Assembly (NCBI GenBank): GCA_947564425.1
Contig: CANOBU010000011.1
Coordinates: 1 to 38,152, forward strand
Source of the DNA: an uncultured Eggerthellaceae bacterium
Lineage (GTDB): Bacteria > Actinomycetota > Coriobacteriia > Coriobacteriales > Eggerthellaceae
Direction of reading: 5' to 3'
Length of the DNA stretch: 38,152 nucleotides
A program made the position numbers and the translations under genes. Of the stretch, positions 3,124 to 24,588 are shown piece after piece. The first letter of the stretch is position 1; every line of letters starts with the position of its first letter. The notes beneath the pieces are model-generated. The model was given only the letters and a program-made list of their open reading frames with translations. It was not told where the DNA came from and ran no database searches.

Positions 3124-3831
3124 TCAGTCGGACGGAGCGCATTTGAAGCCGATGCCCCACACCGTTTGGATATAGCCATCGGTGCCAGTGGGCTTCAGCT
3201 TCGTACGCAGATTCGAAATATGGGCGCTCACGGTGTTCTCGGCAGCAGCATAGGGCTCGCCGCGCACCGCTTCGAAAAGCTCCTGCTTCGAGAACACGCG
3301 ATTGGGATGACGGCAGAGCATCTCCGCGAAGGCGTACTCCGTAGGGGTAAGATCCACCGCGGCGCCGTCGATCGCTAGGGTGCGGGAAGCGGGATCGATG
3401 GTCCAGCGCCCCGCCTGCAAAACCCCGTCTTTGGACGGAACCGAGTTGCTCCGATGCCGCAGCTGCACCGCTACTCTGGCCGCCAGCTCGTCCAAATCGA
3501 AGGGTTTGGCCAGGTAGTCATCGGCCCCCAACTCCAGCAATGCAACTTTGTCAGCTGATGCCGTGCGAGCTGAAGCGACGATGATCGGCAGGCCGTTTCC
3601 GCGATTGCGGATGGCCTTCACCAATCCCTCGCCGCTGCAGCCGGGCAGCATGAGGTCGGTGATCACCAGATCGAAGCTGCGATGCTCCATGAGCAACTGC
3701 GCCTCGGAGCCCGAGAAGGCTGCAACCGCTTCCAGGCCCTCGCGGCCTAGCCGCGTGCACACCACATCATTGATGGCGGCGTCATCTTCCACCACCAGTA
3801 CGCAAGGGATCCTGTTTCCTCTCCCATCCAT
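3124..3831 (-). CDS. OmpR-family response regulator
   Basis: 235 residues with an intact receiver domain: acidic pair D16/D17, phospho-acceptor Asp59 in DLVITDLMLPG, Ser87 and conserved Lys109 in DDYLAKPFD. A C-terminal winged-helix effector domain (about 135-232) ends in the usual TVWGIGFKC hairpin wing. It should be phosphorylated by the kinase at 208-1098 and activate the ABC-kinase operon 160 bases downstream. The ATG at 3831 has no ribosome site, and a perfect TATAAT ends eight bases upstream, so the mRNA is probably leaderless. The whole 208-3831 module looks less GC-rich than the housekeeping genes beside it, which hints at acquisition. Confidence 0.92.
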   Translation of the reverse strand: MDGRGNRIPCVLVVEDDAAINDVVCTRLGREGLEAVAAFSGSEAQLLMEHRSFDLVITDLMLPGCSGEGLVKAIRNRGNGLPIIVASARTASADKVALLELGADDYLAKPFDLDELAARVAVQLRHRSNSVPSKDGVLQAGRWTIDPASRTLAIDGAAVDLTPTEYAFAEMLCRHPNRVFSKQELFEAVRGEPYAAAENTVSAHISNLRTKLKPTGTDGYIQTVWGIGFKCAPSD

Positions 3832-8001: not shown

Positions 8002-10581
8002 CTAGGGCCGCGCCGCCGACTTCTCCCCCTCCAGCAATCCGGCGTAGAGGGCCGATGCCTCCGGCGAGGGATCGATGCCCAGCTGCTCGTCCAGCACGGA
8101 CCGGCAGCGCAGGAATGTCATCATGGCGGCTGTGCGCTGGCTGCTGGCGATCTGGGCTTGCATGAGGGCCACCCAGGCATCCTCGCGGGTCTGGTCGTGG
8201 CGCAGGGCCGCCCGAGCGAACCAGATGCCCCATTCCGGATGCCCCGTCGACACGATGGTGCCGGTGGCGGCCACCAGGGCATCCACCAGGCGCGCACGGC
8301 AATCGTTGCGAGCCTGGACGATCAGGCGGTTCTGATGCTCGGAAGGCATCAGGTCGTTCGAGAAATCGCGGTCTATCTCGGCGAACAGGCTCGACCATTG
8401 CGATACCTCGGGTGCGCCGAACAGCAACTCGCGGCATATCTCGGAGAACCTCATGAGGTCGCTTTGCACATAGCGCTGCTCTAAACTGCATCCGAACTGG
8501 TGGCGCACCAGATAGGGGCAGGTGCCATCGGGGAGGGTAAGCACCTTGCGCAATTGCGACCATACGGTATAGAAGTTCTTCCGGGCCGCCTCCTCTTCGC
8601 TTTCCGGCCACAGGGCCCGGATGAGGAAATCGCGGGTGACCTCGCGACCTTGGTTCACCGCCAGGATAACCAGCAGCGACCGGGCATTCTGGCGGCGGAA
8701 CCGGGCGGTGGCAACCGGCGTGTCGCCGATGGATACCTGGAAGCATCCGAAGAGCTTGATGTTGAGCATGGGGATGCGCTGCTGCATGGCGCCGGAGAGC
8801 AATCCCGGTCCATCGAGGAAGGCCGCCGGATGCGTCCGCATCCAACCGTCGCGTTTCGCCTGGGCGGCCCGATGCTCCGAGGCGAAGAGGTGACGCTGGG
8901 CGAGCACGGACATCTCGGCCTGGCGCAGCGCGAACAGCGCGGCTGCCTCCAGGGCGCCCCCGTTGTAGGATACGCCCTTGCGATGCGCATCCTCCATGGC
9001 AAGGCCGGCGGAAGCAAGGAAATGGTCCGGCAGCTCCCCGGCAACCAAGCGTCGGCGCACGTATTCCTCGGCAGCGCGCGGGAGGAAAGGGCGCAGGGGC
9101 GCATCGCCGGATGCGCTTTCGCGGGCCGCCGCCCCGAAGGCCCAGGCGGCCCCCAGGCACAGCACGGCATCGTCGGCATGGGAGGCCGCAAGGCCCTCCC
9201 ACAGCTCCATCAACGCGTACAGCCCATCACACGCCGCGCATCCTAAGGCTGCCAGCTGGGCAAACGGCTCGGCAGGCACACGGTCCGGGAAGTCGGCCCC
9301 CTGCGCCATGCGTCGCAGATCCTCCTGGGCGGCAGCCGCCTCATCGCCTTCTCCGAAACGGGCCGACACCAGGGCCGCAACAGCCCGCACCTCATCGGAT
9401 GCCTCGCCGTCCACGCGACACCGATGGGCCAGCCTCAGCGCAGCCTCCGCATCTCCCAGCAGGGCGCGGCACACCGCCTCGAGCACCGCCAGCGACATCC
9501 TGAGGGGCGTCGGTGCGCCCTTGCGATCCCGCGCAATGAGGAACGCCTGATAGAAGCAAGCCGCCTGCATCATCGTCCGGCGATGGCGATGCAGCCACGC
9601 CATGCGATCTTGCCGGGCGCCCATCAGGCGCATGGTCTCGCAGGCCCGGTCCGGCAAACCGTTCGAGACCAGCGCGTCGGCCCAACGCTGCACCAGCCCC
9701 TCCCGGCTGGCGGGGACCGAACGGGACCCCAGAAGATCGAAACAGCCCTTCAGAGCCTGCGCCAGCAAGGCGATATCCAGCGGAACGGCATCGAACCCCT
9801 CGCGCTCCTGCCCCAATCCCAGATGGGGGTAGTCGCGCCGCAGCTGATCCCAGGCATCGCCATCCACGGCCACGAGCGAGCCCAGGTCCTCGGCGCTCCC
9901 CTTCTGCAGCACCAGGGCGCTGGCGACTACCAGCATGAGGTCGCAGGGAAGCTCTTCCCGCAGCAGCTGGCCGGCGAAGCCCTCGGCGGCCGCGGTGCCG
10001 GCACCCCACACGAGCGCCGGCACCCGGCGGCTCTCCGGAACCTCGGGCGCCGGCTGCAGATCGCATTCGGCGGCGGTGCGGCTCGCATCGAGCTCGTCAT
10101 CCTGCAGCAGCAGATCCGCCGCTCCCAGCCGTACCCTATCGTGCTGCGCCGAACCCGCATCGGCCGAAGGCACGCAGGTCACCACCACCTCGCAATCGGC
10201 CTCCAAGAGCAGGTCTATCTCATGGGAGAGCCGCTGCATCCGCTGGGAATCCAAGACGGGAAGCTGGTCGATAACCACCAGGGCCGCTCCCCTGTCCGCA
10301 GCAAGGCAATCCGCCGCGATGGTGCCGGCATCCAGGTCGCGGATGAAACAGGGGCTCTGGGCCCCTATCCAGAAGGTGTGGCCCCAACCGAACATGGTTT
10401 CGGCATAGCCGGCGGCCAAGGTGGTCTTCCCATAGCCGTCGGGCGCTACGATGAAGCGGGCCACGCCCCGCTCCTTGGCCAAGCGCCCCAGAAGGTGGGG
10501 CCGCTCGAAACCGGTGAGGCCGGCCAGGGATGCCGGCCGCTTGCCATTGCAAGCGGCCCGGTCGATGAAACTCATTGCCAT
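8002..10581 (-). CDS. Large ATPase regulator with C-terminal SARP-type winged helix and BTAD domain
   Basis: 859-residue regulator. N-terminus: a STAND/MalT-like P-loop ATPase with Walker A FIVAPDGYGKTT (Lys52) and a Walker B-like ALVVIDQLP near 101-109. Middle (about 250-600): alpha-helical and Ala/Leu-rich, probably TPR-like. C-terminus: a winged helix from about residue 605 (MLNIKLFGCFQVSIGD, then RRQNARSLLVIL) and a bacterial transcriptional activator (BTAD) domain to the end (GIDPSPEASALYAGLLEGE). Classical SARPs carry the DNA-binding and BTAD parts first, so the order is reversed here. The ATG at 10581 has GGAAAGG eight bases upstream; an ATG two codons later is an alternative. It has its own promoter region and no obvious target next to it. 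Ligand and regulon are unknown. Confidence 0.82.
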   Translation of the reverse strand: MAMSFIDRAACNGKRPASLAGLTGFERPHLLGRLAKERGVARFIVAPDGYGKTTLAAGYAETMFGWGHTFWIGAQSPCFIRDLDAGTIAADCLAADRGAALVVIDQLPVLDSQRMQRLSHEIDLLLEADCEVVVTCVPSADAGSAQHDRVRLGAADLLLQDDELDASRTAAECDLQPAPEVPESRRVPALVWGAGTAAAEGFAGQLLREELPCDLMLVVASALVLQKGSAEDLGSLVAVDGDAWDQLRRDYPHLGLGQEREGFDAVPLDIALLAQALKGCFDLLGSRSVPASREGLVQRWADALVSNGLPDRACETMRLMGARQDRMAWLHRHRRTMMQAACFYQAFLIARDRKGAPTPLRMSLAVLEAVCRALLGDAEAALRLAHRCRVDGEASDEVRAVAALVSARFGEGDEAAAAQEDLRRMAQGADFPDRVPAEPFAQLAALGCAACDGLYALMELWEGLAASHADDAVLCLGAAWAFGAAARESASGDAPLRPFLPRAAEEYVRRRLVAGELPDHFLASAGLAMEDAHRKGVSYNGGALEAAALFALRQAEMSVLAQRHLFASEHRAAQAKRDGWMRTHPAAFLDGPGLLSGAMQQRIPMLNIKLFGCFQVSIGDTPVATARFRRQNARSLLVILAVNQGREVTRDFLIRALWPESEEEAARKNFYTVWSQLRKVLTLPDGTCPYLVRHQFGCSLEQRYVQSDLMRFSEICRELLFGAPEVSQWSSLFAEIDRDFSNDLMPSEHQNRLIVQARNDCRARLVDALVAATGTIVSTGHPEWGIWFARAALRHDQTREDAWVALMQAQIASSQRTAAMMTFLRCRSVLDEQLGIDPSPEASALYAGLLEGEKSAARP

Positions 10582-17388: not shown

Positions 17389-20025
17389 CTAATGCGCGGC
17401 CGCCCAGGTGTCGCCGACGCCGATGTCGGCGATCAGCGGCACCTGCAGGCTCACTGCGTTCTCCATAGCGTCCTTCACCAGGGCACTCACCTCGTCCAGC
17501 TCGGCCTTGGGCACCGAGAAATCAAGCTCGTCGTGCACCTGCAGCAGCAGCTTCGCCTGGAAACCGCCTTCCACCAAACGACGCATCACATCGTTCATGG
17601 CCATCTTTATGATGTCCGCTGCCGAACCCTGCATGGGGTGGTTCATGGCGGTGCGCTCGCCGAAGCCCCGCTGCACGGCGTTCTTGGCCTTCAGCTCGGG
17701 GATATAGCGGCGCCGGCCGAACATGGTCTCGGCATAGCCCTTGGCCGCTGCCTCCTGCACCGTGGAATCCAGGTAGGCCCGCACGCCGGGATAGGCTTCG
17801 AAATAGCGGTCGATCATGGCCTTGGCATCGGCCATGGGTATCTCCAGCGATTGGGACAGACCGAAGGCCTGCTGGCCGTAGACGATGCCGAAGTTCACCG
17901 CCTTGGCCTGGGAGCGCATAGCCGGCGTGACGTCTTCCACCGCCACGCCGAACACGCGGGCGGCGGTGTTGGCGTGGAAATCCTCGCCGGAGTTGAAAGC
18001 TGCAATCAAGTGCTCGTCGCCGGAAAGATGCGCCAGCAGCCGCAGTTCTATCTGGGAATAGTCCGCCGAGACGAACACGGATTCGCCATCGAGCACCCCG
18101 AAGCACTCGCGGATGCGGCGGCCGAAATCCGTGCGCACGGGAATGTTCTGCAGGTTCGGCTCGGACGACGACAGGCGCCCGGTGGCTGTGACGGTCTCGT
18201 TGAACGAGGTGTGCACCCGGCCGTCGCCGTAACGTGCGGCGATTACCGGCAGCTGGTCGATGTAGGTGTTCTTGATCTTGGCGAATTCGCGGTACTGCAG
18301 CACCAGGGCCGGCAGCTCGTGGACCTCTGCCAGCTTCTTCAGCACCGAGGCATCGGTGGAATAGCCCCGCTGGTTCTTCTTGCCATGGGGAAGCTCCAGC
18401 ACCTCGAAGAGGATGCGCCCCAGTTGGGACGGCGAACCTATGTTGAACTCCTCCCCCGCCAGGGCGAAGATGCGCGCTTCCAAGCCCTCGAGCTCCTGCT
18501 CGGCGAAGGCACCCAGCTCCTTCAGGGCCGCGCTGTTGATGGGAGCGCCGTTGCGCTCCATGATGGCCAGCACCGGCACCAGCGGATAGTCGATATCATC
18601 ATAGACCGGGGCCACGCCGTCGGCCTCCAAGCGGTCCCGCAGCTTCCCCGTGAGGGCGAAGACGGCTTGGGCCTCCACGGAAGCTCGGGCGGCGGCATCC
18701 TCGGTCTCGGGGAGCGATGCGCCGCAGTAGCGCTCCATGAGGCCATCCAAGGGATACTTGCCGGCTGAGGAATCGGCATCGTAGGCGGCCAGGGCCACAT
18801 CGAATCCGTCGGCGGCCAGAAGGTCCTCGCGGGTCACAGCCGCAGGGATGCTGGAATCAACCGGATACACCTCGTGCACGAGGGCCTTCACATCATGGGC
18901 GGCGAAGCTATGGCCCTTCACGATGGCAGCCAGGGTCTCCACAGCATCTTCGCCGGCCAGCACCGCGCAACCCTGGGAAGCGGCCAGGGCCAGGTTCACC
19001 TCCGGTTCGAAGAGCGAGGCCTGGTCGGGCCGGGCCAGAGCCAGGGCCACGGGGTCCCCATCGGCCAGCAGCTCCTCGGCCAGGGCCGCAGCCGCCGGCC
19101 CCGTCACCGCCTCGCGCACCTGGAACGCCGGCGCGGCGGGGATATCCTCCTCTATACCCGCAACCTTCAGCAGCTTGCCCAGCTGGGCGTTGAAGCGCAG
19201 GGCCCCGAAGGCCTCTTCCACGGCTGCCAGGTCGAAATCGGGCCATTGCACGGCCTCGACGTCCAGCTCGAAGTCGAGATCGGTCACGATGGTGGCTATC
19301 TGGCGCGAAAGGAAGGCCAGGTCGCGGTTATCGCGCAGGTTCTCCAGCTGCTTGCCCTTCAGCTCGTCCAGGTTCTCGTAGACCCCTTCCATGGTGCCGA
19401 AGCGCTCCAGCAGCTTCTGGGCGGATTTGGGCCCGATGCCCGGCACACCGGGTATGTTGTCGGAGGTATCCCCCATGAACCCCAGGTAATCCGGGAACTG
19501 CGCAGGGGTCACGCCGTATTTCTCGACCACCTTGTCCGGGTCGAACACCACCACATCGGTGATGCCCTTCTTGGTGGTGACCACGTGGGTCTTATCGGTG
19601 ACCAGCTGGTTGATATCCTTGTCGCCGGACACCAGCAGCGTCTCGTAGCCCAGGGCCTCGTCGCGGGCGGCCACGGTGCCCAATATATCGTCGCCCTCCC
19701 AGCCGGGGACTTTCACCACGGGGATGTTCATGGCCTCCAACAGGCTCTCGATCAAGGGGAACTGCACGTGCAGCTCGTCGTCCATGGGGGGCCGCTGGGC
19801 CTTGTACTGTTCCAGGGCCTTTATGCGGAATTCGGGCTTTCCCTGGTCGAAAGCGCATACGATGCCGTCGGGAGATTCCATCTCGATGAACTTGAACAGC
19901 ATCGAGCAGAACCCGAACACCGCATTGGTGGGCGTGCCGTCGGGGGCGTTCATGGTGGGCGGCACCGCATGGTAAGCCCGATGCATCAGGGAATTGCCGT
20001 CGATCACCGCAATGCGCTTGGTCAT
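17389..20025 (-). CDS. polA: DNA polymerase I
   Basis: 878 residues. N-terminal 5'-3' exonuclease (1 to about 300; VIDGNSLMHRAYHA, GWEGDDILGT, SGDKDINQLV, GDTSDNIPGVPGIG). Central 3'-5' exonuclease-like domain (about 310-480) in which I cannot find the Asp-x-Glu and later Asp metal ligands, so proofreading is probably lost. C-terminal polymerase: motif A DYSQIELR (Asp655), motif B RSQAKAVNFGIVYG, motif C HDEL (831-834, Asp832/Glu833). It fills gaps after repair and removes Okazaki primers. The ribosome site (AGG) is weak. It is separate from the rplU operon, whose promoter begins about 50 bases after its stop. Confidence 0.97.
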   Translation of the reverse strand: MTKRIAVIDGNSLMHRAYHAVPPTMNAPDGTPTNAVFGFCSMLFKFIEMESPDGIVCAFDQGKPEFRIKALEQYKAQRPPMDDELHVQFPLIESLLEAMNIPVVKVPGWEGDDILGTVAARDEALGYETLLVSGDKDINQLVTDKTHVVTTKKGITDVVVFDPDKVVEKYGVTPAQFPDYLGFMGDTSDNIPGVPGIGPKSAQKLLERFGTMEGVYENLDELKGKQLENLRDNRDLAFLSRQIATIVTDLDFELDVEAVQWPDFDLAAVEEAFGALRFNAQLGKLLKVAGIEEDIPAAPAFQVREAVTGPAAAALAEELLADGDPVALALARPDQASLFEPEVNLALAASQGCAVLAGEDAVETLAAIVKGHSFAAHDVKALVHEVYPVDSSIPAAVTREDLLAADGFDVALAAYDADSSAGKYPLDGLMERYCGASLPETEDAAARASVEAQAVFALTGKLRDRLEADGVAPVYDDIDYPLVPVLAIMERNGAPINSAALKELGAFAEQELEGLEARIFALAGEEFNIGSPSQLGRILFEVLELPHGKKNQRGYSTDASVLKKLAEVHELPALVLQYREFAKIKNTYIDQLPVIAARYGDGRVHTSFNETVTATGRLSSSEPNLQNIPVRTDFGRRIRECFGVLDGESVFVSADYSQIELRLLAHLSGDEHLIAAFNSGEDFHANTAARVFGVAVEDVTPAMRSQAKAVNFGIVYGQQAFGLSQSLEIPMADAKAMIDRYFEAYPGVRAYLDSTVQEAAAKGYAETMFGRRRYIPELKAKNAVQRGFGERTAMNHPMQGSAADIIKMAMNDVMRRLVEGGFQAKLLLQVHDELDFSVPKAELDEVSALVKDAMENAVSLQVPLIADIGVGDTWAAAH

Positions 20026-20070: not shown

Positions 20071-20136
20071 GCCCGGCAAACCTACCCCCGCCGCACCAAC
20101 CGCTTCCACCCAACAACCCGAAACCGCCCCTCCCTT

Positions 20137-20159
20137 GAGCGCGAGCGAAGCGAGCGCTC
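20137..20159. repeat. Small imperfect hairpin with AGCGAAGCGAG unit
   Basis: GAGCGC (20137-20142) and GCGCTC (20154-20159) pair around an inner GC-rich stretch containing AGCGAAGCGAG (20144-20154). The same 11-base unit occurs again at 20208-20218 in the loop of the neighbouring large hairpin. It lies between the polA promoter and that hairpin. Confidence 0.5.
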
Positions 20160-20170
20160 CGGGCTCCGCA

Positions 20171-20250
20171 GCGCCGAGGGCGGGAGGCCGGAGCTTTCAA
20201 CCCCCGCAGCGAAGCGAGGAGTGAAAGCGCAGGCCTCCCGCCCTCGGCGC
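20171..20250 (-). terminator. Very large hairpin ending the polysaccharide-glnA operon
   Basis: Nineteen-base perfect inverted arms (20171-20189 and 20232-20250) enclose a second perfect 7-base pair of arms, GCTTTCA (20193-20199) and TGAAAGC (20222-20228), separated by a 3x3 internal loop. The 22-base terminal loop carries AGCGAAGCGAG. The structure starts 20 bases after the GlnR-like gene stop and separates it from polA. No T-run follows, so it is either a non-canonical terminator, an mRNA 3'-end stabiliser or a mobile extragenic palindrome. Confidence 0.65.
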
Positions 20251-20270
20251 GGACAGGTCCACCCGCCCGG

Positions 20271-20939
20271 TTACGAGTTCCAAAGATACCCCACCCCGCG
20301 TACGGTCTCGAGCCGCTGGGCCAGCTCGGGACCCAGTTTCGAGCGGATGCGCCGCACGTGCACATCCACCGTGCGCGAGCCGCCGTAGTAATCGAAGCCC
20401 CACACGTGCTGCAGCAGGGCATCCCGCGAGAAGGTATGGCCGCAGTGGCGCACCAAGAATGACAGCAGCGCATACTCCAGATACGTGAGGTCGATGGGAG
20501 CATCCCCCACCGTCACCTGGTAGGTCGCCAGGTTAATCACCATGTTATCGATGACGATGACCTCCGACCCCTCGCCCTGGACCTTATCGTTGAGCAGGCG
20601 GCGCACCCGGGCGGCGCACTCATCGGGCGAGGCCCCGTGCACGACGAAGTCGCTGGGCGCCCCGGAGGGGAACTGCAGCGCCCCCGCCTGGTCGGCATCT
20701 GCTATGAGCAGAAGGGGGCTTCCCGTTTCATCGGCCTTGGACTCGATGGCGCCCAATTGGCCGAGGGCCGCACCGCGCGCCTCGAAGATTATGAGGTCGA
20801 ACCGCGACCCCTCGCCCAGCAGCTTGCCCACCTGCAGGGTGGAACCCGCGGATATATCCACATCGAAATCGCTCAGCACCTGCTGGAACTTATACGCATT
20901 GTCGAGGCTGTCGGCTATGAAGACGATATGCTTGCCCAT
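20271..20939 (-). CDS. Orphan GlnR-like OmpR-family regulator with non-phosphorylatable receiver
   Basis: 222 residues. The receiver-like domain (1-118) lacks phosphorylation residues: Glu53 replaces the acceptor Asp (FDLIIFEARG) and His101 replaces the conserved Lys. The DNA-binding domain (about 128-222) closely resembles actinobacterial GlnR: TYLEYALLSFL, HVWGFDYYGGSRTVDVHVRR, KLGPE and TVRGVGYLW. GlnR is an orphan regulator of nitrogen genes that works without phosphorylation. The start at 20939 shares one base with the glnA stop (TGATG), so the two are translationally coupled; a longer reading would fall inside glnA. The context and degenerate receiver both support nitrogen control, though an unrelated orphan regulator cannot be excluded. 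Confidence 0.85.
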   Translation of the reverse strand: MGKHIVFIADSLDNAYKFQQVLSDFDVDISAGSTLQVGKLLGEGSRFDLIIFEARGAALGQLGAIESKADETGSPLLLIADADQAGALQFPSGAPSDFVVHGASPDECAARVRRLLNDKVQGEGSEVIVIDNMVINLATYQVTVGDAPIDLTYLEYALLSFLVRHCGHTFSRDALLQHVWGFDYYGGSRTVDVHVRRIRSKLGPELAQRLETVRGVGYLWNS

Positions 20940-22276
20940 CAGAGCACCGCCAGGTAATGGTCGAGTTCCCATTGGCTGACATGGCGCAGGTAATCCATCC
21001 ACTCGGCCCGCTTCGTGCGCACCAGATACGAATGGATATGCTCGCCCAGGGTGCGCTTCATCAAATTCGACGCCTCGAAGCGGTCCACCGCCTCGCCCAG
21101 ATTGAAGGGGAGCAGCTCGCAGCCCCCCTCGCGGGCACCTTCGCGGGTGCAGGCGAAGAAGTTGCGGTCCTCGATGGGATCCGGCAGCGGGAGCCCCTCC
21201 TCGATGCCGGCCAAGCCGGCCGCCAGCATGACGGCGAAGGCCAGATAGGGATTGGCCGCCGGATCGGGGCTGCGCAGCTCCACCCGGCAGGCATCGGGAC
21301 GATGGGGGCGGTAGCCGGGCACCCGCACCAAGGTGGAGCGGTTGCCATGCCCCCAGGATATGCAGGACCCCACCTCGCGCTGGTCGACCAGGCGCTTATA
21401 CGAATTCACGTTCTGATTCGTGATGAGGCAGAACTCCGGCGCATACTTCAGCAGGCCAGCGATGTAGTGCTTGGCCGTTTCGGAAAGGTTGCAGCCGGAA
21501 GGGTCGCGGCTATCGTAGAAGAGGTTGTTGCCCTCGAAATCCACCAGGCTCTGATGCACGTGCATGCCGTTGCCCGGAGCATCGGAGAGCGGCTTGGGCA
21601 TGAACGACGCATGCACCCCGTGCTTCAGGGCTATCTCCTTCACCACCAGCTTGTACGTCATCACGGCATCCGCCATGGAAAGCGCATCGGTATAGCGCAG
21701 GTCTATCTCGTGCTGGGAGGGCCCGCTCTCGTGATGGGAGTACTCGATGGGAATGCCCATCTTCTCCAGGGCGAGCACCGTGTCGCGCCGCAGGTCGGAG
21801 GCATAATCGAGGCTGGTCAGGTCGAAATAGCCTCCCCGGTCGAGCACTTCGGGGGCCCGGGCGTCCTTGAAGTAGTAGTACTCCAGCTCGGGGCCTACGT
21901 TGAACACATAGCCTGCTTCCGCCGCCTTGTCCACCATGCGGCGCAGCACCTGGCGCGGGTCGCCGTCGAAAGCAGCGCCATCGGGAGTGCGGATATCGCA
22001 GAACATGCGGGCCACGGCATCTTGGGAGGGGCGCCAGGGGAGCACCTGGAACGTGGAAAGGTCCGGGAAGGCCAGCATGTCCGATTCGAAGACGGGATTG
22101 AAACCCGACACGCAGCTGCCGTCGAAGCCCATACCGTCGGTGCAGGCATCCTCGATCTCGCTCGGCGACACCGCGAAGGACTTCATGGCGCCCAGCACAT
22201 CGGTGAACCACAGGCGCACGAAATGCACATCGCGGCCCTCGATGGTCTTCAGAACGAAATCAAGCTCGGGGTTCAT
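20939..22276 (-). CDS. glnA: Type I glutamine synthetase
   Basis: 445 residues, joining ammonia to glutamate with ATP. Visible motifs: FDGSCVSGF (latch region), PELEYYYF, HHESGPSQHEIDLRY (metal ligands), GNGMHVHQSL, NVNSYKRLV followed by the flap Glu in QREVG (replacing the usual GYEAP), HGNRS (ATP) and ELRSPDPAANPYLAF. It is short, and I see no beta-type adenylylation Tyr insert, so it is GSI-alpha-like. The altered flap (GYEAP to QREVG) and latch (FDGSS to FDGSC) leave room for a divergent glutamine-synthetase-like ligase, but the key Glu is kept. AGGAG lies four bases before the ATG. It lies 10 bases after a glycosyltransferase gene and is coupled to the GlnR-like gene. Confidence 0.93.
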   Translation of the reverse strand: MNPELDFVLKTIEGRDVHFVRLWFTDVLGAMKSFAVSPSEIEDACTDGMGFDGSCVSGFNPVFESDMLAFPDLSTFQVLPWRPSQDAVARMFCDIRTPDGAAFDGDPRQVLRRMVDKAAEAGYVFNVGPELEYYYFKDARAPEVLDRGGYFDLTSLDYASDLRRDTVLALEKMGIPIEYSHHESGPSQHEIDLRYTDALSMADAVMTYKLVVKEIALKHGVHASFMPKPLSDAPGNGMHVHQSLVDFEGNNLFYDSRDPSGCNLSETAKHYIAGLLKYAPEFCLITNQNVNSYKRLVDQREVGSCISWGHGNRSTLVRVPGYRPHRPDACRVELRSPDPAANPYLAFAVMLAAGLAGIEEGLPLPDPIEDRNFFACTREGAREGGCELLPFNLGEAVDRFEASNLMKRTLGEHIHSYLVRTKRAEWMDYLRHVSQWELDHYLAVL

Positions 22277-22286
22277 AATGCTCCTG

Positions 22287-23627
22287 TCACGAGAAGATGC
22301 CCTTCAGGCGCCTATAGGCGCCCTTCAATGCGCCGGAAGGCTCCGCAGGGGCCTCCAGCTTTGCAAATATCCTATCCATTATCTCGTCATCGATGCCGTT
22401 CCGTAACCGATATTTAATCCGCAGGACGACGATGGCGCCGGGCTCGTCCAGCTGAAGCACGATCATAGGATCGCTTTTCGGGAAAGCGCAGCTGCCGTCC
22501 TCCAACACGAAGCCGTTGGTCTGCACCTGGGATATACCGGCTTCCCAATGGCGCCCATCGGCGAATTCCGCCCAGGCATGGAATCCCTCGACCATGATAG
22601 AGCCATAATCGATAGGGTCCAGGCGCAAAGCACGAACGACTGTCCCCGGTCCCCCTACGTCGTGATAAACCAGCTCGTCGACATCGCCCGCATGGTTCAC
22701 CTCCGGCTCGAAGAGCATGGTCTCCTCGTCGAAACCCTCGCCAGCATCGATGTACAGCTTAGAATCGCCCGGGCGGACGGGTCGCAGGCGACCCCCTCCC
22801 AGCAGGTGGTTGAGGGAGCCGGCGGACAGGCTGATCGGCTGGGCATCGAGCTTTCCCCACAGCCTATCGCGGCAGGCCACCCAGAACTCCCTCTGGTATT
22901 GCCGGCGGCTGTTGGGACCCGTGCGCCACATGCGGTAGATGCTCGTAGGCTCGGGGTTTATAGCCAAACCGCATCGCAGGACCGCTTGCAGCAGGTAATC
23001 CCAATCCTCGTTGGCGTCCATCTCCTCGTCGAAAGCGAGGCCCGCCTCGAGCAGGGGGCGCCGGGGATAGGCCAGCCCCAACGTCGGGCATCGATTATCC
23101 CGTATGAGGTCGGCTATATCGAACGTACGGCAATAGGTGTTGCTGAAGCCCGATACGGGATGGGGTCCTTCGCCTTCCTCCCCCAGATCCCATTCCTGGG
23201 TCTGCACGAAGCTGTAGATCACCCGCCCGGGGTTCTCGAGCGCCGCCGCCCGGGTACCGGCCATCCAATTCGGCCTTAGAAGGTCATCATCGTCGAAGAT
23301 GAGGACATATTCGCCCCGGGCATGGGAGAACCCCGCATTCAAAGGCCGCGAGCGCGAACCACCCTCCACTGCCAGAAGCGATACGCGCCCGGCCAGGCCC
23401 CCGTGGCGCCCCAAGAGCTCCCGCACCGCATCCAAGGCAGAGGGCTCGGCGTTATGGGCGACCACCATCAATTCGAAATCGCCATCGGTCTGGGCCTCCA
23501 GCGAATCCAGGGCGGTATCCATAGCCGCCATGCGCAGCCCCTGTGTGCGCATGACCACGGAAACGAAAGGAGCCTGCGGCCGAGCCGACTCCATCAGGAC
23601 CTCGCAAGCAGCGGCCCCCTCACTCAT
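22287..23627 (-). CDS. Family 2 glycosyltransferase with C-terminal accessory domain
   Basis: 446 residues. GT-A domain (about 20-235): FVSVVMRTQGLR, the Asp cluster FDDDDLLRPNW for metal/sugar-nucleotide binding, and NEDWDYLLQAV with the likely catalytic base. After about residue 265 an all-beta accessory region (LYIDAGEGF, LRLDPIDYG) resembles modules appended to other surface-polysaccharide transferases. The start at 23627 has AAGGAGG six bases upstream and overlaps the sugar transferase gene by 8 bases. It is the last polysaccharide gene before glnA. Donor and acceptor sugars cannot be assigned. Confidence 0.85.
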   Translation of the reverse strand: MSEGAAACEVLMESARPQAPFVSVVMRTQGLRMAAMDTALDSLEAQTDGDFELMVVAHNAEPSALDAVRELLGRHGGLAGRVSLLAVEGGSRSRPLNAGFSHARGEYVLIFDDDDLLRPNWMAGTRAAALENPGRVIYSFVQTQEWDLGEEGEGPHPVSGFSNTYCRTFDIADLIRDNRCPTLGLAYPRRPLLEAGLAFDEEMDANEDWDYLLQAVLRCGLAINPEPTSIYRMWRTGPNSRRQYQREFWVACRDRLWGKLDAQPISLSAGSLNHLLGGGRLRPVRPGDSKLYIDAGEGFDEETMLFEPEVNHAGDVDELVYHDVGGPGTVVRALRLDPIDYGSIMVEGFHAWAEFADGRHWEAGISQVQTNGFVLEDGSCAFPKSDPMIVLQLDEPGAIVVLRIKYRLRNGIDDEIMDRIFAKLEAPAEPSGALKGAYRRLKGIFS

Positions 23628-24588
23628 CGAGGGCCTCCTTTGCGGTCCCCTCTCCATCCTGCACATAGATGCCCTCTTGGTTGAACACCGTGAAAAACGT
23701 CTTCAGGAACACCTTCGCATCCAGGGGGAAACTGAGGTTCCTGACGTAGTCGACATCCAGGGCCAGGCGGTCGTGCCAGGGCAGCGCATTGCGCCCGTAC
23801 ACCGCCGCATAGCCGGTGATGCCGGGGCGCACCGCCAGCTTCAAGGGCTCCTCGCCCCGGTAGAGCTCTACCTCGCGGGCCAGATCGGGCCGCGGGCCCA
23901 CCACGCTCATATCGCCTTTCAGCACATTCAGGAACTGGGGCATCTCGTCAAGGCTGGTCTTGCGCATGAAAGCCCCCACCCGGGTCATGCGCGGGTCGTC
24001 GGCGCCGTTGTAGGTCGAGCCGTCGTCCATCACCAGGTCGGGCGCATCCACCTTCATGGAACGCAGCTTGTACATGATGAAGGGACGGCCGTCCTTGCCG
24101 ATGCGCGGGGCGTTATAGAACACCGGGCCCCCATCCTCCAAGCGGATGGCAACGCCGCAGCCGGCGATAACCGCACCCACGATGGGCAGCGCCAGGGTTC
24201 CCAGGACCACATCCCACATCCGCTTGCCATGGCGGCGGTAGAAGCTATCCGGCAAGGGCGCAGCGGGGCTCTCGCCGAGCGCATCGCCGCCTTCGGCATC
24301 CCCGTCCGCCACGCGACCCTTCCCAATCCGCCCGGCCGAGCGGGCAGCCACAGCCCGGCTGATGGCGATGCCGCCTGCAACGGCCCCCACTGCGATTCCC
24401 GCAGCGGCAGCCAGGGCTATCCCCATAGACCGTTTGGCCAGAAGCTCGTAGTTCTCGCGCACCGTAGCGCCCCCTTGGCGGGCGGCCAGCCTCTCGATGC
24501 GCTTCGCCACCCGTGCAGCCTTGGGCCCCCAGGCCCGCCTTATGGCCTTCACGGCCTGCTGCTGGGCGAATACGGCAGCGTCCATCAT
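23620..24588 (-). CDS. Polyprenyl-phosphate sugar-1-phosphate transferase (initiating transferase)
   Basis: 322 residues. The C-terminal 200 residues are a bacterial sugar transferase domain: membrane helix [19 protein letters not shown], then [17 protein letters not shown], the [26 protein letters not shown] block and [14 protein letters not shown]. Relatives (PglC, WcaJ) transfer a sugar phosphate from a UDP-sugar to undecaprenyl phosphate and start glycan assembly. The N-terminal 110 residues (amphipathic, with an extra Ala/Gly helix at about 54-77) are unusual. ATG 24588 overlaps the DegT stop; the next codon is also ATG. Coupling to an aminotransferase suggests the first sugar may be an amino sugar. 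Confidence 0.93.

Follow-up and report, generated by a model that had tools for sequence, protein, structure and literature searches.

A GlnR-like regulator with a degenerate receiver domain is encoded directly behind glnA in an uncultured Eggerthellaceae bacterium and many of its relatives

The stretch of DNA analyzed here (the window) comprises 38,152 nt of contig CANOBU010000011.1 of an uncultured Eggerthellaceae bacterium (assembly GCA_947564425.1; 116 contigs, 1.67 Mb, completeness 85.85%), whose closest named relatives are uncultured Eggerthellaceae and Coriobacteriaceae genomes, several labelled from ruminants, followed by Adlercreutzia and Gordonibacter. The regulator under study is a GlnR-like protein of 222 residues encoded on the reverse strand (20271..20939), as are all features of the locus given below, and was assigned from its open reading frame, its Pfam and PDB sequence matches and its position in a tree. 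Residues 1–120 (20580..20939) form a receiver domain, with an intact fold in the model and a degenerate phosphorylation set, and residues 125–222 (20274..20567) a winged-helix DNA-binding domain. The codon for Glu53, at the acceptor place, lies at 20781..20783, with Arg55 nearby as in the D-A-R of GlnR, and that for His101, which replaces the conserved Lys, at 20637..20639. Upstream is glnA (20939..22276), encoding a type I glutamine synthetase of 445 residues in which all 13 checked residues are kept. The two genes meet in a TGATG junction (20937..20941), where one base is common to the glnA stop codon TGA and the regulator start codon ATG; the description of the pair as fused by overlap in an earlier sequence-only reading therefore holds as regards the one-base overlap, but "fused" is a loose word for two overlapping genes. 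A glycosyltransferase gene (22287..23666) ends 10 nt 5' of glnA, with no GlnR box between the two, and polA (17389..20025) lies downstream of the regulator, as it does in most relatives with enough flank. With glnA, polA and the glycosyltransferase gene as neighbours, no kinase gene is found beside the regulator. A palindromic intergenic repeat resembling GAGCGAAGCGAGCG occupies positions 20129–20260 of the window and is also present upstream of amtB (L201), and the 859-residue product of positions 8002–10581 contains a BTAD domain (PF03704) and may be a regulator.

Glu53 in place of the acceptor Asp and His101 in place of the conserved Lys, both reported by the sequence-only reading, are present in the 222-residue frame, and the canonical pair of phospho-receiver residues is absent. 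The Pfam model Response_reg was not matched in this protein at E ≤ 0.001, the winged helix being the only domain seen, whereas another regulator in the window (3124–3831) matches Response_reg with 87.7 bits. Both the missing phosphorylation set and the missing match bear out the claim that the domain is not a normal two-component receiver. An AlphaFold2 model built from a 48-row alignment (pLDDT 88.1, pTM 0.56) has a complete receiver fold.

The C-terminal half of the regulator matches Trans_reg_C (PF00486) with 84.2 bits. The best PDB sequence matches are 8hig (111.7 bits), 8hih (104.1 bits) and 8hml (97.0 bits), named as GlnR of Saccharopolyspora erythraea (8hig and 8hml) and Mycobacterium tuberculosis (8hih), followed by MtrA (74.5 bits); this ranking above MtrA indicates that the likeness of the DNA-binding half to actinobacterial GlnR, noticed earlier, is more than chance. 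In a full-length tree of 93 rows, 25 are canonical OmpR proteins (seven belong to the own genome, 16 to two further genomes, and the others are MtrA and one phylum row); a single branch (SH-aLRT 99) sets them apart from the other 68, which are GlnR-like and include both PDB GlnRs. The DNA-binding domain alone, the phylogeny of which had been suggested as a check, likewise groups with GlnR apart from canonical OmpR on one branch (SH-aLRT 82, 89 rows) in a tree from which the long rows L244, L245, L221 and L224 were dropped and which carries a few-columns warning. Both trees are quick searches with long-branch warnings and no inferred root, and in them Actinomycetes-type rows are closer neighbours of the PDB GlnRs than the window regulator is. 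Of 48 family genomes sampled, 42 contain a full-length match and six have only weak or partial ones.

Superposition of the modelled DNA-binding domain on that of S. erythraea GlnR gave a Z score of 17.6 and an r.m.s. deviation of 1.4 over 96 residues; PhoB, VicR and YycF tie with GlnR within 1 Z, and the structural ranking was set aside as family evidence because such ties are not diagnostic. As in the GlnR family, the protein combines an OmpR-type winged helix carrying the GlnR recognition segment with a receiver fold that lacks an intact phosphorylation pocket. The segment WGFDYYGG..RTVDVHVRR is partly common to other OmpR regulators, such as YycF, as would fit a generic OmpR regulator with no role in nitrogen metabolism that stands beside glnA by chance. 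This reading is very improbable in view of the tree split and the PDB ranking, as well as the conserved pairing, the second copy at gltB and the boxes described below. Identity with the MerR-type GlnR of Firmicutes, which has a synthetase-binding C-tail, was rejected, since the winged helix belongs to PF00486 and the protein ends two residues past the last matched region.

In the alignment, the E-A-R of the window regulator (Glu53 with Arg55) is opposite the D-A-R of the PDB GlnRs, and the Asp50–Arg52 pair typical of the family is absent. In known GlnR, Asp50 is described as pairing with Arg52 for the dimer (PMC10704036), and the Asp reportedly serves dimerisation and is not phosphorylated (PMC10704036; PMC12632262). 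Glu is found at the acceptor place in all 53 rows of the window's family (f1, L004–L056); elsewhere the residue is mostly Asp, with some Pro, Ala, Ser and Met, and the conserved Lys is missing there too. The Asp is also missing from distant rows that the tree places on the GlnR side; Glu53–Arg55 was therefore kept as a GlnR variant, and we read Glu53 as a probable conservative structural replacement for the GlnR Asp. The sequence-only reading had instead suggested that Glu53 may act as a phosphate mimic and keep the regulator always on, the overlap with glnA providing feedback. Glu at this place reportedly activates some regulators in part, and among receivers lacking the Asp no substitute is more frequent (PMC12632262). 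Nevertheless, the papers and the alignment together leave an always-on state unsupported, because Glu53 is fixed in the family and known GlnR already works unphosphorylated, as reported in PMC10704036, and because His101 stands where a phosphomimetic would need its Lys partner. Moreover, the sister families mostly carry Asp or other residues at the acceptor place yet keep the same gene pair, the overlap is not conserved and the window glnA has no box (see below), such that phosphate mimicry appears improbable.

The glnA gene lies directly upstream of the regulator in all 41 examined first-copy loci of the family (30/30 in L004–L033, counting L018, where only part of glnA is present at a contig end, and 11/11 in L046–L056). 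Among the 24 loci from the rest of the order (L057–L080), it is within 150 nt in 18 and at 867 nt in one, with none in the fetched stretch in the other five. For three of the five (genomes G050, G059 and G067, family f4), the same strand carries a synthetase gene ∼3.5–5 kb ahead of the regulator, and therefore something may be inserted between them; at L057/L132 a stop codon interrupts the GlnR-like gene behind glnA. A set of 64 loci around the nearest relatives has glnA within 73 nt in 45, the others being eight second copies, two loci with glnA ∼2.5 kb off, eight with none and one unrelated Priestia regulator; ten Coriobacteriales/Coriobacteriia loci of this set lack an adjacent glnA. Across the class (L250–L273), 22 of 24 loci have glnA at most 182 nt upstream. 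In the phylum outside the class it is adjacent in 11 of 21 loci (L156–L176) and in none of 14 further stretches (L234–L240 and L243–L249), a set that includes one gene twice and in which L243, at the least, is off the GlnR side of the tree. L172 and L175 (phylum family f17) instead have a synthetase fragment on the downstream side of the GlnR-like gene, beginning 351–378 nt away. These locus sets overlap, and some genomes are present under two names. The pairing of glnA with glnR thus looks old, and the layout, thought earlier to be unusual, is widespread in the Coriobacteriia and present in other Actinomycetota. Because the gaps among adjacent loci span −7 to 182 nt, the overlap is not conserved, which also speaks against the notion that the TGATG junction fixes the ratio of the two proteins.

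An additional GlnR-like gene without glnA was found at 12 loci of the genus (L034–L045). In all 12, gltB is directly downstream of this second copy, and asnB is upstream in 11 (within ∼225 nt in nine and at ∼2.4–2.6 kb in two); L037 has no asnB in the 1.3 kb remaining on its contig. Pfam matches at these loci include asparagine synthase at two and glutamate synthase at one. The box pattern discussed next is absent from all scanned asnB upstream regions of the second-copy loci. In the own genome gltB is present and no second copy was seen on the assembled contigs, an absence that is not proven because the assembly is 85.85% complete.

The published GlnR box is gTnAc-n6-GaAAc (PMC10704036). De-duplication of glnA upstream regions on their last 50 nt left 78, of which 65 are from outside the genus and 13 from within it. 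The pattern G[AT]NAC-n6-G[ATC]AAC is present in 21 of the 65 (shuffle mean 0.16, maximum 2), leaving 44 without, and in 0 of the 13; GTNAC-n6-GNAAC was found in 11/65 (shuffle mean 0.09, maximum 1) and again in 0/13, and the reversed pattern in 0/65. At the same loci, the 21 matches fall within 11.9 kb of glnA upstream sequence, as compared with five in 900 kb elsewhere. A TANNNT hexamer follows 9 nt on in 11 of the 21 sites, at 10 nt in three and at 12 nt in one, with none caught in the remaining six.

In the own genome, GWAAC-n6-GWAAC gave six matches versus three for the reversed control: two overlapping at amtB–glnB (GTAAC-n6-GAAAC-n6-GAAAC), one at gltB (GAAAC-n6-GAAAC, starting 79 nt before the gene) and three that are not before nitrogen genes. 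A site search upstream of amt and glnB genes, which the sequence-only reading had advised, thus returned a box before amtB–glnB. Across the genus, the strict box occurs in 6 of 12 amtB upstream regions (shuffle mean 0.08) and the relaxed box in 11 of 12 (shuffle mean 0.17, maximum 2); outside the genus the figures are 4/18 and 6/18. In the genus, a hexamer with AT as its last two bases follows the end of each of the 11 relaxed sites, at a distance of 10 nt in ten loci and 11 nt in the own genome, and the own gltB box is 21 nt from the apparent −10 element, not 9–11 nt. Class II activator spacing is the reference for such box to −10 distances. No GlnR box match was found anywhere in the 38,152-nt window, and the best score upstream of its glnA resembles background, being reached by 94 of 143,344 positions, in a background that included L310–L313; because these four were fetched for holding box matches, the top ranks of the scan amount to a biased genome scan. 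The direct feedback between enzyme and regulator that had been proposed is thus not borne out in the own genome, although relatives do have a box before glnA. Given the boxes at amtB–glnB, at gltB and at glnA of relatives, the regulator can therefore be linked in this genome to glutamate synthase and the uptake of ammonium, and in its relatives to glnA. The link to nitrogen that the earlier reading had drawn is strengthened by these boxes and by the second copy beside gltB.

Collectively, there is good support for placing the regulator in the GlnR family and for its having a nitrogen regulon; it is very probably an actinobacterial GlnR-family member in an old glnA–glnR pair and would activate nitrogen-assimilation genes. 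In the working proposed here, it would dimerise without phosphorylation, Glu53 beside Arg55 replacing the Asp50–Arg52 of known GlnR, and would respond to nitrogen. It would bind tandem GlnR boxes that stand in for the −35 element shortly before the −10 element, and in the bound state would activate nitrogen-assimilation genes, activation being suggested by the box to −10 spacing. The likely targets are amtB–glnB and gltB in the own genome and, in relatives, also glnA–glnR.

The paired synthetase was considered as a possible source of the signal. The window GlnA scores 437.4, above the GlnA equivalog cut-off of 429.15, and the top 15 PDB matches to it are all synthetases, 442–467 residues long. 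The residue numbers and roles used here (E212, E220, H269, E327, N264, R62 and others) are those we take to apply from the Salmonella and Bacillus enzymes, mapped by motif. Decay is not claimed for the window's species because its GlnA keeps all 13 residues. The equivalents of R62 and N264 are both Pro in this protein and neither is diagnostic; N264 was discarded as an indicator of a decaying synthetase because Gln, Trp, Phe, Asp or Pro occupies this site in distant actinobacterial GlnA proteins.

The 13 checked residues are kept at all 21 sister-order loci. Of 11 phylum loci from outside the class, ten retain the flap Glu and four differ at R339. In the window's order, 80 GlnA proteins remained after de-duplication by exact sequence, and L273 was added to give 81. 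The flap Glu is kept in 45 of these, with 20 changes on a 114-row tree from which the flap and ligand columns were excluded; in parts the alignment of the flap is uncertain (Glu in 44/80 or 45/81, L273 reading Glu or Pro). One or more of five metal ligands (E131, E212, E220, H269 and E357) is lost in 13/81, and E212, E220 and H269 are all replaced in seven (six in family f10 and one in f4), the frames remaining full length and lying beside a GlnR-like gene (L067, L068, L069, L072, L075, L079 and L273). Five f10 glnA genes are under purifying selection (dN 0.029–0.151, dS 0.45–0.77 over ten pairs), and five of the six triple-replaced genes tested have a GlnR box upstream. In two families of the order, GlnA thus seems to have lost catalytic residues and yet been retained; no bacterial synthetase precedent for such a pseudoenzyme was found among the literature matches listed. 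A type III synthetase frame (∼700 residues or more) is present in 23/23 genomes of the order versus 2/36 sister-order genomes plus one fragment, and the own genome has two such frames; the matches listed for Collinsella and glnN contained nothing relevant.

Since dead-looking GlnA proteins are kept beside GlnR, a sensing role for GlnA is a possible reading: physical contact with the paired synthetase, whether active or inactive, would switch the regulator. Feedback-inhibited synthetase has this effect on the GlnR of Firmicutes, a MerR-type protein of unrelated fold. Contact between a synthetase and GlnR thus has a precedent (described in PMC9249791), and the gene pair is kept across much of the class. 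However, the window GlnA may simply be an enzyme because all 13 checked residues are kept, its glutamine-feedback residue R62 is Pro, and second copies in several genomes and the ten loci noted above do without an adjacent glnA. This reading is therefore tentative. Its fuller form is equally doubtful: the GlnR-paired type I GlnA of Coriobacteriia would be the nitrogen sensor of GlnR, released from catalysis in the order that carries type III synthetases, its flap having drifted there and two families having come to hold a conserved pseudo-synthetase that reports metabolite state to the pseudo-receiver. A simpler account, to which we give not quite an even chance, is an ordinary operon in which enzyme and regulator are co-transcribed for convenience, with the regulator controlled by Ser/Thr phosphorylation, acetylation or a partner such as PII. 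Covalent modification is reported for Streptomyces coelicolor GlnR (PMC10704036; PMC12632262), and glnB is beside amtB in the own genome, but such an operon does not by itself account for synthetases without metal ligands staying beside the regulator.

Compared with actinobacterial GlnR, the window regulator, for which GlnR-family membership remains the preferred reading, has the same DNA-binding domain, degenerate receiver and acidic-x-Arg motif at the acceptor place, with boxes at amtB–glnB here and at glnA in relatives; it differs in the Glu for Asp of its family, in the gene position directly behind glnA and in the second copy at gltB found in the genus. It shares with the Firmicutes glnRA operon the pairing of a short type I synthetase with a nitrogen regulator and possible contact between them, but has an OmpR winged helix rather than a MerR domain, the order glnA then regulator, and Pro at the R62 equivalent. 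The Asp-less pseudo-receivers ChxR and HP1043, likened here by description and not by sequence, also have a receiver fold without the phosphorylation set and no adjoining kinase gene; unlike them, the window regulator is of GlnR lineage with nitrogen targets. GlnRII/NnaR of actinomycetes, again likened by description, are nitrogen regulators of the same organisms as GlnR, GlnRII being described as OmpR-like (PMC10704036). A 2025 review (PMC12632262) describes how bacterial pseudo-receivers are switched as a mystery. The glnA–glnR pair retained in much of the class, the box in many members and the apparently dead GlnA in some make the synthetase a candidate input, and GlnA sensing, if true, would supply the missing input of the OmpR-type GlnR. 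In the open-licence PMC literature no paper on GlnR in Eggerthella or Coriobacteri* was found, and Coriobacteri* is not mentioned in the wider GlnR literature among the matches listed; the boxes described here would extend the GlnR regulon to gut Coriobacteriia.

The type III synthetases appear to stand largely outside this regulon. Both type III promoters of the own genome lack the box, and it is present in 2 of 22 type III upstream regions examined; general GlnR control of these genes was rejected on the basis of the other 20. A box-like GAAAC-n6-TTAAC is found on the opposite strand before a type III synthetase gene of the own genome, ∼30 nt upstream of position 2315 (L202, contig C21).
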